The notes under the pieces are model-generated. The model did not search any database, was not told the origin of the DNA, and saw only the letters and a list, made by a program, of their open reading frames with translations. This document shows positions 24,024 to 30,890 of a DNA stretch of 64,000 nucleotides, in pieces (the stretch's first letter is position 1; each line of letters starts with the position of its first letter). The position numbers were made by a program, and so were the translations under genes. The DNA comes from Comamonadaceae bacterium (GTDB lineage: Bacteria > Pseudomonadota > Gammaproteobacteria > Burkholderiales > Burkholderiaceae_C). The stretch is taken from the NCBI GenBank assembly GCA_027486555.1, contig JAIXOX010000007.1:1-64000 (forward strand), in the 5' to 3' direction.

Positions 24024-24099
24024 GCGGCTGTAGCTCAGTGGATAGAGTATTGGCCTCCGAAGCCAAGGGTCGTGGGTTCGATCCCCGCCAGCCGCACCA
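24024..24099 (+). tRNA. tRNA-Arg (anticodon CCG), CCA encoded
   Basis: GCGGCTG...CAGCCGC-ACCA acceptor stem; anticodon loop CTCCGAA with stem TTGGC/GCCAA; T-loop GGGTTCGATCCCC. Confidence 0.96.
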
Positions 24100-24143: not shown

Positions 24144-24923
24144 TCAAAAAGAAAAAGGCCATGAGCTTTTGACGGGCCAGACAAACTCCAGAGGCCAGGT
24201 CAGGGAGGATGGCCAAATCAAATGGGGTGGCCACACCAATTCATAGGGGCTCCACAGCGCAATGCCGTAGCCGAGCAAGGCACCCAACAAAAGGGTGAAA
24301 AAGCGCCATATATAAGAGGAACCAGTACGTACCAAGGGCGTGTTCGCAGTCTGATCGTGAGCCAAACTGAGTGATGATTGATCGGGAGAAAGGTCCTGAT
24401 CTTGGCAGGGCGTGGACAAACTCAGTGCTACGGGTTTCATCAGAGTCGTTGCGTTCGTGGTGTTTGGATGGTTCAGCTCAGACCATTCATCTTGTCGAGA
24501 GTTGCTGGCTGGTTTGATGCTGATAGGCCATTGCAGTTGAACCACCTTATTGAGGGGTTTTGATGCAAAAGCAGCATTTTCCAATTTGTCCCAATCCGCA
24601 TTGAGCAATTTGGCAACACGTTTGGCAGCTTGATCGCGCAGTGATGATGAATAAAAGCGGGTCGAAAGGCCTTGCTCGATTTCATAGAGTTGGGCCACGG
24701 ATATGCAAGCTTGTGTGGCCAACTCAGCAGGGTCAAGTTCCAAATGAAGACGCAAATTTCGGATCAATCGACCCTTGGGGTCTTCAGAAACCTCGGTGAA
24801 TTGATCCATGCGTGTTGCAAAAGAACGATTGGCATGCAAAAGAGATTCATTTTCTCCTGGTCGGGACAGATTGCGCGACAAGCAAGATGTCCTGTTGAAG
24901 GGCATGAATTTCAGCTCTTGCAT
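24144..24923 (-). CDS. Helix-turn-helix (Cro/C1/RodZ-type N-terminus) protein with C-terminal TM segment and WP-repeat tail
   Basis: GRLIRNLRLHLELDPAELATQACISVAQLYEIEQGLSTRFYSSSLRDQAAKRVAKLLN HTH; hydrophobic WRFFTLLLGALLGYGIALW then WPPHLIWPSSLTWPLEFVWPVKSSWPFSF; overlaps preceding ORF by 13 nt. Confidence 0.75.
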   Translation of the reverse strand: MQELKFMPFNRTSCLSRNLSRPGENESLLHANRSFATRMDQFTEVSEDPKGRLIRNLRLHLELDPAELATQACISVAQLYEIEQGLSTRFYSSSLRDQAAKRVAKLLNADWDKLENAAFASKPLNKVVQLQWPISIKPASNSRQDEWSELNHPNTTNATTLMKPVALSLSTPCQDQDLSPDQSSLSLAHDQTANTPLVRTGSSYIWRFFTLLLGALLGYGIALWSPYELVWPPHLIWPSSLTWPLEFVWPVKSSWPFSF

Positions 24924-25582
24924 GATGCCACCACACCGGTCAGGTAAGCGTGTAACCAGATAGAAGAAAGAGGGCCGGGCACCAACTGGATGGAAGAAGC
25001 TGCGCCGAACGGCATGGAAGATGCCAGGCCTTTTTCTTGAGTGATCAACACCACCGACAAGGGTGTATGACCACGATTGTTGAAGTTTTCAAGCGCTTGA
25101 AAAGTTTTTTCCTGAAGGGTACGAGGCATGGACATCTCGACAACGATCATGTCAGGACGTTTGTTGGAAAGATCCAAAAGCGCTTCGGTCACGGATTCGA
25201 AAAAATTAACGTCAATGGGGATACCCCATTGCTGAAAATCTTGCATGAAACTGTTCATCAAGCCCGGTGTTTCGATGACAACGGTCACACGAGGTTTGCT
25301 GCTGGATTTTGCATGGCGATTCACAGCATGTCGTGAAACGGTTTGGTAATCCATGATGGAGTCCAGCGAAATACGGCGGTGTCCGCCACGCGTTTTCCAA
25401 CCTTTGAGTTCACCTTGATCGACCAGTGTCTGAACGAGTGTGGTGGACAAACCCAACATTCGAGCCGCTTCTGCGGTGCTTAAAAATTGTGGGGTGTGCG
25501 GTGTTGACTTGTTCTGGACCATCAAAGATGCTGGTTCGATGGAAATAACGTCATCAAGAATAAGAGTGTGTTCATCGCCCAT
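24911..25582 (-). CDS. Excisionase/MerR-type HTH protein with receiver-like C-terminal domain
   Basis: FLSTAEAARMLGLSTTLVQTLVDQGELKGWKTRGGHRRISLDSIMDY (excisionase HTH) followed by REC-like RVTVVIETPGLMNSFMQDFQQWGI...RPDMIVVEMSMPRTLQEKTFQAL. Confidence 0.8.
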   Translation of the reverse strand: MGDEHTLILDDVISIEPASLMVQNKSTPHTPQFLSTAEAARMLGLSTTLVQTLVDQGELKGWKTRGGHRRISLDSIMDYQTVSRHAVNRHAKSSSKPRVTVVIETPGLMNSFMQDFQQWGIPIDVNFFESVTEALLDLSNKRPDMIVVEMSMPRTLQEKTFQALENFNNRGHTPLSVVLITQEKGLASSMPFGAASSIQLVPGPLSSIWLHAYLTGVVASCKS

Positions 25583-25610
25583 GGTTTGGCTCCTGAAAAG
25601 TGAATTTGGA

Positions 25611-26822
25611 TTAACGCTCGCGCAACGCCTGAGTGACGTTTTGCAAAGGACGGAAGAGGTATTCAAGAACGGTCTTGTAGCCCGTCCTGATTTCGACAGA
25701 GGCAGTCATGCCAGGCGAGGGGGTGAGGCGAAGGCCGTTGCGCAATTCAGGACTTGGTTTGACCCGAATGATGATTCGGTAAAGTCCTTCTTCGAGCTCA
25801 ACCGGGTTGCCGGGTTTGCGTTGTTTTTCGTCGCGTAATGTGTCTGGGCTCAAGTGTTCGAGCACACCATCAAGACCGCCGTATTTGTTGAAGTCGTAAG
25901 CGGTTAACTTCACAACCGCAGACTGGCCAACTTTCAAAAATGCCACTTCAGCAGGTTTAACGTAAGCTTCAACCAGCATTTCGTCTTCGGTGGGAACAAT
26001 TTCAAGAATCGATTGACCCGCTTGGACAACACCACCGACGGTGGTGATCTGGACGTTTTTCACCACGCCTTTCATTGGAGATCTGATGGTGGTTCTGCGA
26101 AATGCGTCCTCGCGTGCCATGGCACTTTCTTTGGTTTGCGAAAGCTCCGAGGCCACACGAACCAACTCATTGTTGGCATCGGTAAGGTAGCGGTTTTGAC
26201 GCTCGGCTCTTTGTCCCATCAATTCAGACTGTTGGCGTTTCAAGCGAAGCAACTCCACCTCGGACATGACGCCCTGGCGAACCATGGGTTCGGTGATCGT
26301 CAACTCACGGGTCACGGAGGACAAAGATGAATCCAATGAACGCAGGGATTCGGACAGGGCCAGTTTTCTGGCGTTGAAGGCTTGCAATTCCTGGCGCATC
26401 AAGGCGGGTTCAGATTTCAATTGCTCAGGAAAAACCAATGAGGTGCCATAAGCTTCGGCTTTCAGGCGTGATGACAAGGCCAAAAGAGCCAGGTATTTTT
26501 CTTTCGCTTCGCGGTAAACCGCACCAGAACGCGCATCGTCAATGCGTAAAAGAATTTGATCCTTTTCAACCACACTGCCTTCTCGTACAAACATTTCACT
26601 CATCACCCCGGAGTCGAGGCTCTGGATGACTTGCTCTCGGCTCGAAGGGATGACTTTGCCCTGTCCCCGGGTGATTTCATCGAGTTCAAAAAATGCAGCC
26701 CATCCCAAAGCCAAAATCAAGGTGAAGGCCGTGGCCCAAATCAGAGTTTTACTGGCCTGACGTTCGTCGTCTTCGACCGTGGGCATGCCAAAACCCTTGC
26801 TCTTGCGCGTTAAAGTGCTCAT
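25611..26822 (-). CDS. HlyD-family type I secretion periplasmic adaptor
   Basis: Single N-terminal TM; DEITRGQGKVIPSSREQVIQSLDSGVMSEMFVREGSVVEKDQILLRIDDARSGA. Confidence 0.95.
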   Translation of the reverse strand: MSTLTRKSKGFGMPTVEDDERQASKTLIWATAFTLILALGWAAFFELDEITRGQGKVIPSSREQVIQSLDSGVMSEMFVREGSVVEKDQILLRIDDARSGAVYREAKEKYLALLALSSRLKAEAYGTSLVFPEQLKSEPALMRQELQAFNARKLALSESLRSLDSSLSSVTRELTITEPMVRQGVMSEVELLRLKRQQSELMGQRAERQNRYLTDANNELVRVASELSQTKESAMAREDAFRRTTIRSPMKGVVKNVQITTVGGVVQAGQSILEIVPTEDEMLVEAYVKPAEVAFLKVGQSAVVKLTAYDFNKYGGLDGVLEHLSPDTLRDEKQRKPGNPVELEEGLYRIIIRVKPSPELRNGLRLTPSPGMTASVEIRTGYKTVLEYLFRPLQNVTQALRER

Positions 26823-29023
26823 GCAGCTGCTCCTTGTGGTTTGGTAACGTTGACATCAATACCCCGCGACAACTTGTCGAGCATCTCTTGCTTGGGGCCC
26901 CAAGCAACGCACTGGCCGGAATCAATCACTGCAATCAGATCAGCCCATTCCAAAAGCTGAGGGCGGTGAGTGGACATCAGCAAAGTGCGTCCGCGCAACC
27001 ACTCGCGCATCACACTAATCACCCGGGCTTCGGTGTTTTGGTCCATGTTCGCCGTGGGTTCGTCCATGAAGACCATTTGTGGATTCCGCAGCATCATTCG
27101 GGCAATCGATAAAAGTTGGCGCTGGCCCCCTGACAGGCCACCACCGGCTTCGGTGATGGGCATGTCCAAGCCCAGGGGATGGTTGGCAACGATGTCGTAA
27201 ACATTGAGTGTTTTGAGGACTTCGACAATCTTGGTGTCGCTGATCCAGCTGTCGGCCAACACCAGGTTTTCGCGCACCGTGCCCATGAAAAGCTGCGGAT
27301 CCTGACCCACATAGCCGATGCGACTGCGCATTTCAGTGGGCTCGATTTGTTGCATGTCGACACCATCGAGCCGCACATTGCCAGCCAAAGGGGCGTACAG
27401 GCCCGACATCAAGCGCAGCAAGGTGCTTTTGCCGCTGCCCACACGGCCCAGCATGGCGACTTTCTGGCCGGGTGCGATGGACATGGACAGGTTTTTGATG
27501 ACTGGGATTTTGTGTTGTCCAGGGTAGGCAAACTCCAAAGAATCCGCTTGCAAACCCCCTTGAATGCTTTCGGGCACAAGGTAATTGCGGCCATGAATGC
27601 GGTCACGGGGGCGTTTCATCAGGCCATCAAGGGTTTCCAGTGCTGAGCTGGCTTGTTGGTAGCGAGAGGCCAAAGACATCACGCTGGCCAAAGGAGAGAT
27701 GGCACGGCCAGCCAAAATCACAGAGGCAATCAAACCACCCAAGGTGAGTTGATTGTTGTGGATCATGTAAACACCGCCTACCACCATGGCCACGGTGATG
27801 AATTGCTGCAGGGCCGTTGTGAAACCCATGATCCAGTTGGTCAGGCTGCGCATGCGTTTGTAGGAGTCGGCACCCGCCAAATTGGCCACCTCCCAACGGC
27901 GCTGCAAGTAGCTTTCAGCGTTGTGTGCCTTGAGCAGTTCAAGGTTCAATACCGACTCGACCAGCACGCTTTGCTTGTCGCCCGACTCTTTCATGTTTTC
28001 CCGCATGGCACTCATCAAAGGCTTTTGAGACAGCAGGCCAATGACAATCAGCAAAGGCACCGCCAGTGCGGGAATCCAGACCAAGTTTCCACCGATCATG
28101 GCAATCAAGGCCAAGAACATCAGTACAAAAGGCATATCGGCCAAAACCACCAAGGATGCGGAGGAGAAAAAGTCACGCAGTGACTCAAAGTCACGCATGG
28201 AACTGGCAAAAATGCCGACGGACTGAGGGCGGTGCTCAAGTCGAATGGCCATGATTTCCCGCAGCAAAGTGGCATTGATGGCCAGATCGGCTTTTTTCCC
28301 ACCCAGATCCACCAAACGGGCTTTGAGCCAGCGCATGATGAACTCCATGAAAATGGCCACGGTGGTGCCAATGGCCAAAGTCCACAGCGAGGTGTAAGCC
28401 CCAGTCGGAACGACTCGGTCGTACACGTTCATGGTGAAGAAAACACTGGCCAGCGTGAGCAAGTTGGCCAACACCGTGGCCACCATCGATTCCACATAAA
28501 AGGCCCGGAATCGCCACAAGGTGCCCCAAAACCAGTTGAAAGCAGAACCTTCCATGGGCGCCAGCGTTTGGTCATGGCGGGTGGGCGGCAGTTTGATGGC
28601 CAGCACCTCGGGGCGGGCCAGACTTTGCAGTTCTGGCAAGGCGATTTTGTGGTCCTCCATGCCCTTGTCTGCCCACCAGACAATGGCCTCCTTGCCTTCA
28701 ATGCTGCGAAGCACGCAGGCCCGTCCATCCATCAAAGGCATCAACACGGGCAGCACGTAGTGAGGAATGTCAGACAAGCGCACGCGAGACCAAGCGGCCA
28801 TCAAACCATTTTTGTGCGCCATGTCGGGATAGGCAGCCAAAGGCACACGACCCCGCGCATCAAGTGCAAAACCGGACCGCAAAACCTGAGCGTGTACAGG
28901 ACGGCCCAGTTGCTTGGCAGCCATGGTCATGCACAGCAAAAAAGGGTCAGCCTGGATGTCCTGACCCGCTGAGGGTTTGGGGGCTGCGCCAACCGCGGTT
29001 GGCATGGGTATCAATTGAGCCAT
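26819..29023 (-). CDS. Type I secretion ABC permease/ATPase (LapB-like)
   Basis: GRVGSGKSTLLRLMSGLY Walker A; LSGGQRQLLSIARMMLRNPQMVFMDEPTANMD; N-terminal peptidase-like domain without a recognisable catalytic Cys. Confidence 0.95.
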   Translation of the reverse strand: MAQLIPMPTAVGAAPKPSAGQDIQADPFLLCMTMAAKQLGRPVHAQVLRSGFALDARGRVPLAAYPDMAHKNGLMAAWSRVRLSDIPHYVLPVLMPLMDGRACVLRSIEGKEAIVWWADKGMEDHKIALPELQSLARPEVLAIKLPPTRHDQTLAPMEGSAFNWFWGTLWRFRAFYVESMVATVLANLLTLASVFFTMNVYDRVVPTGAYTSLWTLAIGTTVAIFMEFIMRWLKARLVDLGGKKADLAINATLLREIMAIRLEHRPQSVGIFASSMRDFESLRDFFSSASLVVLADMPFVLMFLALIAMIGGNLVWIPALAVPLLIVIGLLSQKPLMSAMRENMKESGDKQSVLVESVLNLELLKAHNAESYLQRRWEVANLAGADSYKRMRSLTNWIMGFTTALQQFITVAMVVGGVYMIHNNQLTLGGLIASVILAGRAISPLASVMSLASRYQQASSALETLDGLMKRPRDRIHGRNYLVPESIQGGLQADSLEFAYPGQHKIPVIKNLSMSIAPGQKVAMLGRVGSGKSTLLRLMSGLYAPLAGNVRLDGVDMQQIEPTEMRSRIGYVGQDPQLFMGTVRENLVLADSWISDTKIVEVLKTLNVYDIVANHPLGLDMPITEAGGGLSGGQRQLLSIARMMLRNPQMVFMDEPTANMDQNTEARVISVMREWLRGRTLLMSTHRPQLLEWADLIAVIDSGQCVAWGPKQEMLDKLSRGIDVNVTKPQGAAA

Positions 29024-29029
29024 GGTCGG

Positions 29030-30415
29030 TCACTTTGAAAAAAATCGCTCATTGGGCGCAGGCAATACACGGCCGGGCTCGGCGTTGAAGCGTTTGGCCA
29101 AATCACCCGTGACAGCCAGCAGGCGCACGCGTGCCAATCGTTCGTCGTGGAACGCAGCTCGGGCGGAGCTGCGGTAATTGAAGGCATCGGCCTGAATGTT
29201 CAGCAGGTCCAGCAAAGAGCGGCGTGCCACACGAAACTGTTGGCGGTAAGCGTCAACGAGTTTGTCGCCCACTTCGGACTGAGAGGCGCCTGTGACAGCG
29301 CGTGAACGGGCAGAAGCCCATTCTTGCCAAGCCAATGCGGCTTTTTCTCGGGCCAGAAGTTGGGCTTCTTCCAAAGCGAATTCGGCGGCTTTGAGTTGAC
29401 CCACGGCACCTTCAACCAAAGCAGCTGTGCCGCCACCGTTGTAGAAAGGGGCATTGACCTGCAGTTGTGTAAAGGCCTCTTGGCGGCCATTGGCGGTGTT
29501 GGCTTGTTTGGAAACCGACAAGTCCACCGTAGGCCAAAACTGGCTCTTGGCGACACGAACGCCTGCTTGTGCGGCTTGAACTTGCGAACGGGCTTGTGCA
29601 ATGGTGGGCAAATCAAGCGAAACCATCTCGACCGCCTGAGCCAAAGACGAAGGAATTTTGCCCAGAACACCCGAATCGGCAACGGCGGCATCAAGGCCTT
29701 CAGGCCGAGATGCCATGTCTGCCGCCCAAAAGCGTCTGACCCGCTGAATGGCTTGGGCAAAGTCTGATTTGCGTTGCTGCAGGCTCAATGTGGCATTTTC
29801 CATCCGAACCAGGGCCTGCTCATAGTCCACACGGCGACCGGTGTCGGCTTGGGCAATTTTTCGGATGTCACTCAATGTTTCTTCATGGGCATTGACGTTG
29901 AGCACAGCCAATCGGTAAAGATCGGCTGTTTTCGCCCAATTGAGATAAGCCTCTGCCGCCAGTTGAGCCACTTCATCCAGGGTGTTGGCTTGCAGATATT
30001 CAGAAGCTTGCGTCAGTGCTTCTGCGCGTTGTGCTTCCGCTTCGATTTTTCCACCCGACCACAAATTGACTTTGGCAGTGGGGGAAAGAGAACTTCTGGA
30101 AGTCCCTGAGGGGTATGCGCCAGAGGCAAAAGCATTGGCAGTGGCCGTTAAACCCAATTGTGGGTAATGGGCGCTGCGGGCGCGAGCAATGTCTGAACGG
30201 GAGGCCGAGGTCTTGGCCGCAGCCGACAGAACGGCCGGGTATGTTTGCAGGGCTTGATTGACAACTTCAACCAAGGTTTGAGCCTGTGCCGAAACCCCCA
30301 CGCTGGTCAGCAAAATGGCAGAACAGGCGTGTTGCATCACAACCCAAAGATCTTGAGAGGGTTTTGACTTCGCAGTTGAACGAAGAAAGTATTTTTGGCA
30401 ATCAAGATGAATCAT
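29030..30415 (-). CDS. TolC-family outer-membrane efflux protein
   Basis: TLVEVVNQALQTYPAVLSAAAKTSASRSDIARARSAHYPQLGLTATANAFA...; TolC repeats, located with T1SS genes; start chosen at MIHLDCQKYF. Confidence 0.92.
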   Translation of the reverse strand: MIHLDCQKYFLRSTAKSKPSQDLWVVMQHACSAILLTSVGVSAQAQTLVEVVNQALQTYPAVLSAAAKTSASRSDIARARSAHYPQLGLTATANAFASGAYPSGTSRSSLSPTAKVNLWSGGKIEAEAQRAEALTQASEYLQANTLDEVAQLAAEAYLNWAKTADLYRLAVLNVNAHEETLSDIRKIAQADTGRRVDYEQALVRMENATLSLQQRKSDFAQAIQRVRRFWAADMASRPEGLDAAVADSGVLGKIPSSLAQAVEMVSLDLPTIAQARSQVQAAQAGVRVAKSQFWPTVDLSVSKQANTANGRQEAFTQLQVNAPFYNGGGTAALVEGAVGQLKAAEFALEEAQLLAREKAALAWQEWASARSRAVTGASQSEVGDKLVDAYRQQFRVARRSLLDLLNIQADAFNYRSSARAAFHDERLARVRLLAVTGDLAKRFNAEPGRVLPAPNERFFSK

Positions 30416-30890
30416 GAGCGGTGAATTACCAGCTACGTTAAAACTGAAATTCTCGTGAAAAAAGAGAAGTAGCAAATCCGCCAAATGGAGTACGAGCCAG
30501 AGAGAAGTAGCTCTGAAATGAAAAATTCAGAGATAAAAGTAGCAAATTGGAAGTGGAAAATGTGGGTCAGTCTTGGCGCTGAACTGACCGGTTCGCAGGG
30601 GGTGATTTCAGTGTGTTTTCAGAGGGAAAACAGAGGAAATACGGAAAAAGAAAGAGAAGCAAGGCGCGCACTGAATGACCTTGAAACACCATGTGGACGA
30701 CCCAAGAAAAGGGCTTGAATTTTTTGGGTGTAACTTTGTAAATAAATCAAATTAGTTTGATTTTGATGTTTTTGACGCGCAAAAAAGAGCTTAAACAGTC
30801 GAAAAGACTGTATAGATCAAAACCAATAGCCATGAAGCGGCCGAGCAACAGATGGCGCACAAGGCCCCGGACCAATGCGGTCAGGCGGCA

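Follow-up and report, generated by a model that had tools for sequence, protein, structure and literature searches.

What does a type I secretion system (T1SS) export, and how is it controlled, when its operon encodes two proteins with DNA-binding domains and no substrate gene lies beside it? This question is raised by a locus in a 64,000-nt stretch of DNA, referred to below as the window. It corresponds to contig C97 in a 3.83-Mb draft assembly from the freshwater genus Limnohabitans, with Limnohabitans sp. WS1 among the nearest named relatives. Five minus-strand genes (30415-24144) follow each other at distances of 6, -4, 28 and -13 nt:

29030..30415 (-): TolC-family outer-membrane channel; PF02321 143 bits (cut-off 22), orthologues in the same order
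26819..29023 (-): LssB/LapB-type T1SS permease/ATPase (ABC); TIGR03375 (LssB) 787 bits (cut-off 693)
25611..26822 (-): HlyD-family T1SS adaptor; TIGR01843 303 bits (cut-off 209)
24911..25582 (-): XisREC, HTH plus pseudo-receiver; HTH_17 44 bits, TIGR01764 41 bits
24144..24923 (-): HTH-TM; HTH_31 24 bits, below cut-off, HTH_31 found in 14/14 orthologues

The gene calls and profile matches confirm the five packed genes of the original prediction. The overlapping ends it described as several are real, and there are just two of them (ABC/HlyD and XisREC/HTH-TM). TolC matches TIGR01844 with 178 bits, below the cut-off of 225. Its true start may be an alternative in-frame ATG at 30337, directly ahead of a signal-peptide-like stretch. 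A tRNA-Arg gene (24024-24099) adjoins the operon end. No RTX or large repeat protein is encoded in the 20-36 kb region of the window, as had been stated for RTX proteins and large repeat adhesins, and no window ORF exceeds 900 aa. A substrate gene beside the exporter, which is usual for LssB/LapB-type T1SS and not defining for them, was not found in the window. By its profile matches, the operon is an LssB/LapB-type T1SS and the exporter class is already known.

For comparison, 90 Limnohabitans genomes were used. Twenty-six of them contain this exporter type with an adjoining XisREC gene, 25 with readable exporter genes and one (G198) in collapsed form. Co-conservation of the five-gene order had been proposed as a check. 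Within Limnohabitans, four genes (TolC-ABC-HlyD-XisREC) keep their order in 25 genomes, and HTH-TM follows XisREC in only 15 of these 25 operons, overlapping it by 13-16 nt in all 15. The gap between HlyD and XisREC is 19-33 nt across the 25 operons. Because the order is kept in 25 genomes, the predicted gene arrangement is conserved far beyond chance. The XisREC-type operon occupies a conserved syntenic chromosomal place in the genus, and ABC identity among diverged operons of this type falls to 72%. That the operon is real and conserved is virtually certain. Sister exporters (ABC 64-69% identical) lack XisREC and mostly have a large upstream substrate (DUF7507/DUF11 or FG-GAP/RTX).

In a maximum-likelihood tree of ABC and HlyD, the ten operons without HTH-TM form one fully supported clade, and the deepest branches carry HTH-TM. 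Therefore, the simplest history would be a single loss of HTH-TM in this 10-genome clade, which still has the exporter, XisREC and an operator-like dyad (see below). Of the two regulators expected to be conserved with the exporter, XisREC is so and HTH-TM is dispensable. XisREC itself is present in at least seven Limnohabitans genomes without this exporter. Five genomes keep it (57-61% identity) and lack both this exporter and any dyad at ≤1 mismatch, so that XisREC is, by these comparisons, not strictly tied to either. Two natural deletions were observed. In G198 (L121:6621-8333), an internal part of the exporter genes is gone and the TolC frame continues into XisREC. In G206 (L261:1500-2495), ABC and HlyD are missing entirely and tolC for the most part; the dyad, a TolC remnant and an intact XisREC gene remain.

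XisREC is composed of a MerR/Xis-type HTH (residues 33-86) and a pseudo-receiver (residues 98-221). The AF2 model shows a receiver fold, which Foldseek related to PhoB and RpaA receivers (E 1.6e-5 to the PhoB receiver), and profiles match NtrC and CheY receivers. Thus, the fold of a response regulator is present; the phospho-acceptor Asp with its acidic pair is not. The Asp is replaced by Glu149, all orthologues have Glu in a VVEMSMP-type motif, and the acidic pair is lost. Distant XisREC paralogues (L066/L075) keep the canonical residues including the phospho-acceptor D. XisREC is a predicted pseudo-receiver protein that would not be phosphorylatable. The label 'Xis', used in the original prediction, proved to be only the name of an HTH superfamily: The operon is located at a conserved syntenic site outside mobile elements, and a role of XisREC as phage excisionase was rejected for the same reasons.

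HTH-TM has an N-terminal Xre/RodZ-like HTH, a linker, one TM segment and a short WP-rich tail; the AF2 model contains helices at 28-120 and a TM-like segment at 202-224. The WP tail noticed earlier is real. It turned out to be a lineage-specific extension seen in the four closest genomes only (G000, G204, G164, G161), and other orthologues stop soon after the TM segment. HTH-TM might not be a transcription factor and might instead position the exporter as a membrane scaffold similar to RodZ, which would be compatible with the explanation for XisREC favoured below. The order of HTH, long linker, single TM segment and short tail is RodZ-like, and the RodZ-type profile HTH_25 gives a weak match in 7/14 members. 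However, HTH-TM fits HTH_31/HTH_3 better, the periplasmic RodZ domain is absent, and a search for PDB relatives yielded nothing beyond an HTH at E=0.9. We consider the scaffold unlikely, and any specific role assigned to HTH-TM is doubtful.

The original prediction had asked for a search for large adhesins elsewhere in the genome. This search identified two candidates, both with tandem Ig-like/Ca-stabilised repeats (Big_12, Big_13, Ig_like_ice, Ca_tandemer):

Source-genome contig C31: C31 adhesin, about 1,130 aa, Big_13/Ca_tandemer, behind an OmpA-like gene
Source-genome contig C77: C77 adhesin, at least 2,136 aa, runs off the contig, Ig_like_ice and Ca_tandemer, behind an OmpA-like gene

Both are unlinked to the operon, as expected for the distant substrate that had been postulated; a distant location is not the rule, as an OmpA-adhesin module adjoins the operon in G157 and G160, the only such cases among the loci examined. 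In G157, a giant Ig/VCBS adhesin is encoded behind an OmpA-like gene 4.5 kb downstream of the operon. With the N-terminal 159 aa of the adhesin from G157 as query, relatives were found in 34 of the 90 genomes, i.e. in 24/26 exporter-positive and 10/64 other genomes (Fisher 7e-12, a value that overstates independence, as the genomes are related). The conserved adhesin N-terminal domain (≈160 aa) has no Pfam, NCBIfam or PDB match above noise. We presume a likeness to the BapA prefix, which no library match confirms. The C-terminal T1SS target domain TIGR03661 has no match in the source genome. The C31-type and giant adhesins have a C-terminal domain in common with the FG-GAP/RTX proteins encoded beside sister exporters, a resemblance that favours T1SSs of this class as their export route. 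We regard both the C31 and the C77 adhesin as very probable substrates of the T1SS described here.

Other large or RTX proteins of the source genome were considered as substrates. Contig C112 (L073:5434-14922) encodes a 1,948-aa RTX protein with animal-haem-peroxidase domains, which was rejected since its own T1SS is located beside it (TolC and an ABC protein 38% identical to that of the operon). The T1SSs on C112 and C142 could export some substrates. On contig C11 (L074:4825-7632), an RTX S8 subtilase (935 aa) was found with no exporter seen beside it and no dyad evidence; it is a possible further T1SS substrate. A 14,731-aa frame on C94 was rejected, as it neighbours a SecA/SapC/HlyD/TolC cluster instead. 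There, genes for SapC, TolC, HlyD/GAF, M50/HlyD and a SecA-DEAD paralogue form a row (L071:8428-18114; L072:2-13156), which looks like a SecA-plus-HlyD/TolC export cluster for giant proteins without an ABC transporter. Short dispersed repeats with translations like 'GWAPTKGQT' or 'IATRASLLQ' (L228:11605-13778; L074:2819-3217) probably represent a REP-like repeat found between genes in this genus.

How could exporter and unlinked adhesins be connected? Upstream of tolC, XisREC-type operons carry the dyad TACNCCAWTTGGYKGATTYRC with the symmetric core TACGCCAATTGGCGTA. In the window, two elements precede tolC:

30472..30492 (-): operator-like dyad TACTCCATTTGGCGGATTTGC, conserved in XisREC-type operons, exact pattern match
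30423..30454 (-): promoter-proximal block GAGAATTTCAGTTTTAACGTAGCTGGTAATTC, also conserved in relatives, where it follows the dyad

Scores of 18 or more out of 21 were obtained for the 25 tolC upstream regions examined, except for G172 and G171-like variants, G172 being the most degenerate. The dyad is absent at tolC of sister exporters without XisREC. Genus-wide, exact matches occur in 22/26 exporter-positive genomes vs. 0/64 others (Fisher 3e-17, again for related genomes). The 30 exact sites comprise 20 exporter promoters, 9 OmpA/adhesin promoters and one at neither (L265:4854, G223:C92). The source genome has exactly two, one at tolC and one at the C31 module; the C77 module has the core match TACTCCAATTGGCGAG, with p=0.005 by comparison with shuffled sequences. 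A PWM built from exporter sites was run over the fetched loci and found its best non-exporter matches at OmpA-adhesin modules, where the site typically precedes the OmpA gene by 50-150 bp. Core scores of at least 12 were obtained for 21/45 modules in exporter-positive genomes vs. 0/7 in exporter-negative ones; within the exporter-positive genomes, roughly every second module lacks a good core match. A TACCCC variant is common to exporter and adhesin sites within lineages (G153, G157, G165). In G160, module and operon are divergent and dyads are present toward both sides. Taken together, a regulon that joins exporter and adhesin modules by a shared dyad is highly probable.

The dyad is also found at OmpA-family genes without an adjoining intact adhesin gene (L267:9960, L268:9792, L269:10064, L264:10006), which suggests orphan regulon members or decayed modules. 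Several other sequences were dismissed. Ahead of tolC, GCTACTT occurs as three direct repeats that were considered as an Xis-type site; they are not conserved even among near relatives. The 1-mismatch site TACGCCACTTGGTGGATTCGC recurs irrespective of whether a genome has the operon and was treated as background. In another genus, palindromes ahead of XisREC paralogue genes apparently lie within the terminal part of an adjoining reading frame, and a dyad-like palindrome in G152/G171 is at chance level by PWM.

We propose, with a probability of about 0.68, that the T1SS operon is the hub of an adhesin regulon in which XisREC binds the dyad. An XisREC dimer would occupy the dyad and jointly control the adhesin modules and the operon that encodes it, independently of phosphorylation. 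The T1SS would export the Ig-like/Ca-tandem adhesins, and the OmpA-like partner might help to hold them at the cell surface. HTH-TM, translationally coupled, might serve as an accessory and tune XisREC from the membrane. XisREC is the likely binder because no other DNA-binding protein was seen in all dyad-bearing operons; HTH-TM is missing in ten. The dyad retained with intact XisREC in G206 and a 1-mismatch dyad that precedes the XisREC match in G221 by about 280 bp fit this assignment without proving it.

The regulon could also be real and its dyad bound by a regulator encoded elsewhere, with XisREC and HTH-TM acting otherwise, e.g. by responding to the export state. The dyad is a site of a general regulator type, another factor of equal distribution could bind it, and XisREC orthologues persist without a recognisable dyad in the five genomes mentioned above. 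The presence of XisREC, and of no other DNA-binding protein, in all dyad-bearing operons speaks against this, as does G206, the latter weakly, since both elements belong to the same locus; a binder encoded elsewhere appears rather improbable. Even less can be said for an ordinary T1SS operon in which XisREC and HTH-TM are incidental neighbours in the same transcript and the adhesins are under separate regulation. Neighbouring genes can hitch-hike, and HTH-TM was apparently lost in one clade. However, order, spacing and the 13-16 nt overlap are kept in diverged operons, and one dyad is common to unlinked loci, so that this explanation is very improbable. The dedicated circuit for a distant substrate that the original prediction suggested can, in our reading with XisREC as dyad binder, be retained for the co-conserved exporter and XisREC, the distant candidate substrates and the common dyad. 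It does not extend to the second regulator, and the substrate is not always distant.

The system resembles known ones in part. LapBCE/LapA with LapDG from Pseudomonas fluorescens likewise combines an LssB/LapB-type ABC protein, HlyD and TolC with giant repeat adhesins. In Vibrio cholerae, the genes for the adhesins FrhA and CraA are located apart from lapBC/lapDG, the closest genomic analogue of the Limnohabitans operon (PMC6890996). The LapG family PF06035 (BTLCP protease) was found in 0/90 Limnohabitans genomes, and a Caulobacter control genome gave a match; LapG-type control is, at the level of this protein family, ruled out for the genus. In contrast to Lap, control in Limnohabitans appears to be transcriptional via the common dyad. 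The closest regulatory analogue is PprB-BapABCD from Pseudomonas aeruginosa. PprB, a response-regulator-class protein, directly controls a T1SS, its adhesin and other unlinked surface genes; bapA-bapD form one operon, and PprB belongs to a two-component system (PMC6821963). By contrast, the Limnohabitans regulator is encoded inside the exporter operon, has an Xis/MerR-type HTH and no phospho-acceptor Asp, and the adhesin genes are unlinked. In Paracoccus denitrificans (BapBCD), one predicted T1SS is accompanied by at least 11 RTX proteins predicted as substrates. The gene for one large substrate adjoins the exporter, and the parts of the publication considered here mention neither a common operator nor a dedicated regulator encoded in the exporter operon (PMC5588039). 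TpgA-type OmpA partners similarly have an OmpA C-terminal peptidoglycan-binding domain and are encoded beside the adhesin. The C31 OmpA protein scores 52 bits with the NCBIfam TpgA model (cut-off 350), and its partner adhesin is of the T1SS type and not a trimeric autotransporter.

A description of the operon or the dyad was not found in the literature, a search that largely did not extend to subscription journals. The view that the system is undescribed applies to the regulatory layer only, the exporter class being known. More tentatively, the exporter operon may encode a phosphorylation-independent regulator and a membrane-tethered HTH partner that, independently of LapDG, jointly match exporter supply to several unlinked giant adhesins via one dyad, possibly by sensing the secretion state at the membrane. 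A natural Asp-to-Glu pseudo-receiver fused to an Xis-type HTH is an uncommon regulator design. In addition, scanning a genome for the operator found ahead of an exporter provides a route to orphan T1SS substrates.

Bacteria of the genus Limnohabitans are common in fresh water, and some of them are associated with Daphnia. In a Daphnia study, two Limnohabitans MAGs were found to have adhesin-transport genes and no adhesin-production genes (PMC6971282). For this genus, the present analysis provides candidate adhesins together with their likely exporter and a candidate switch.
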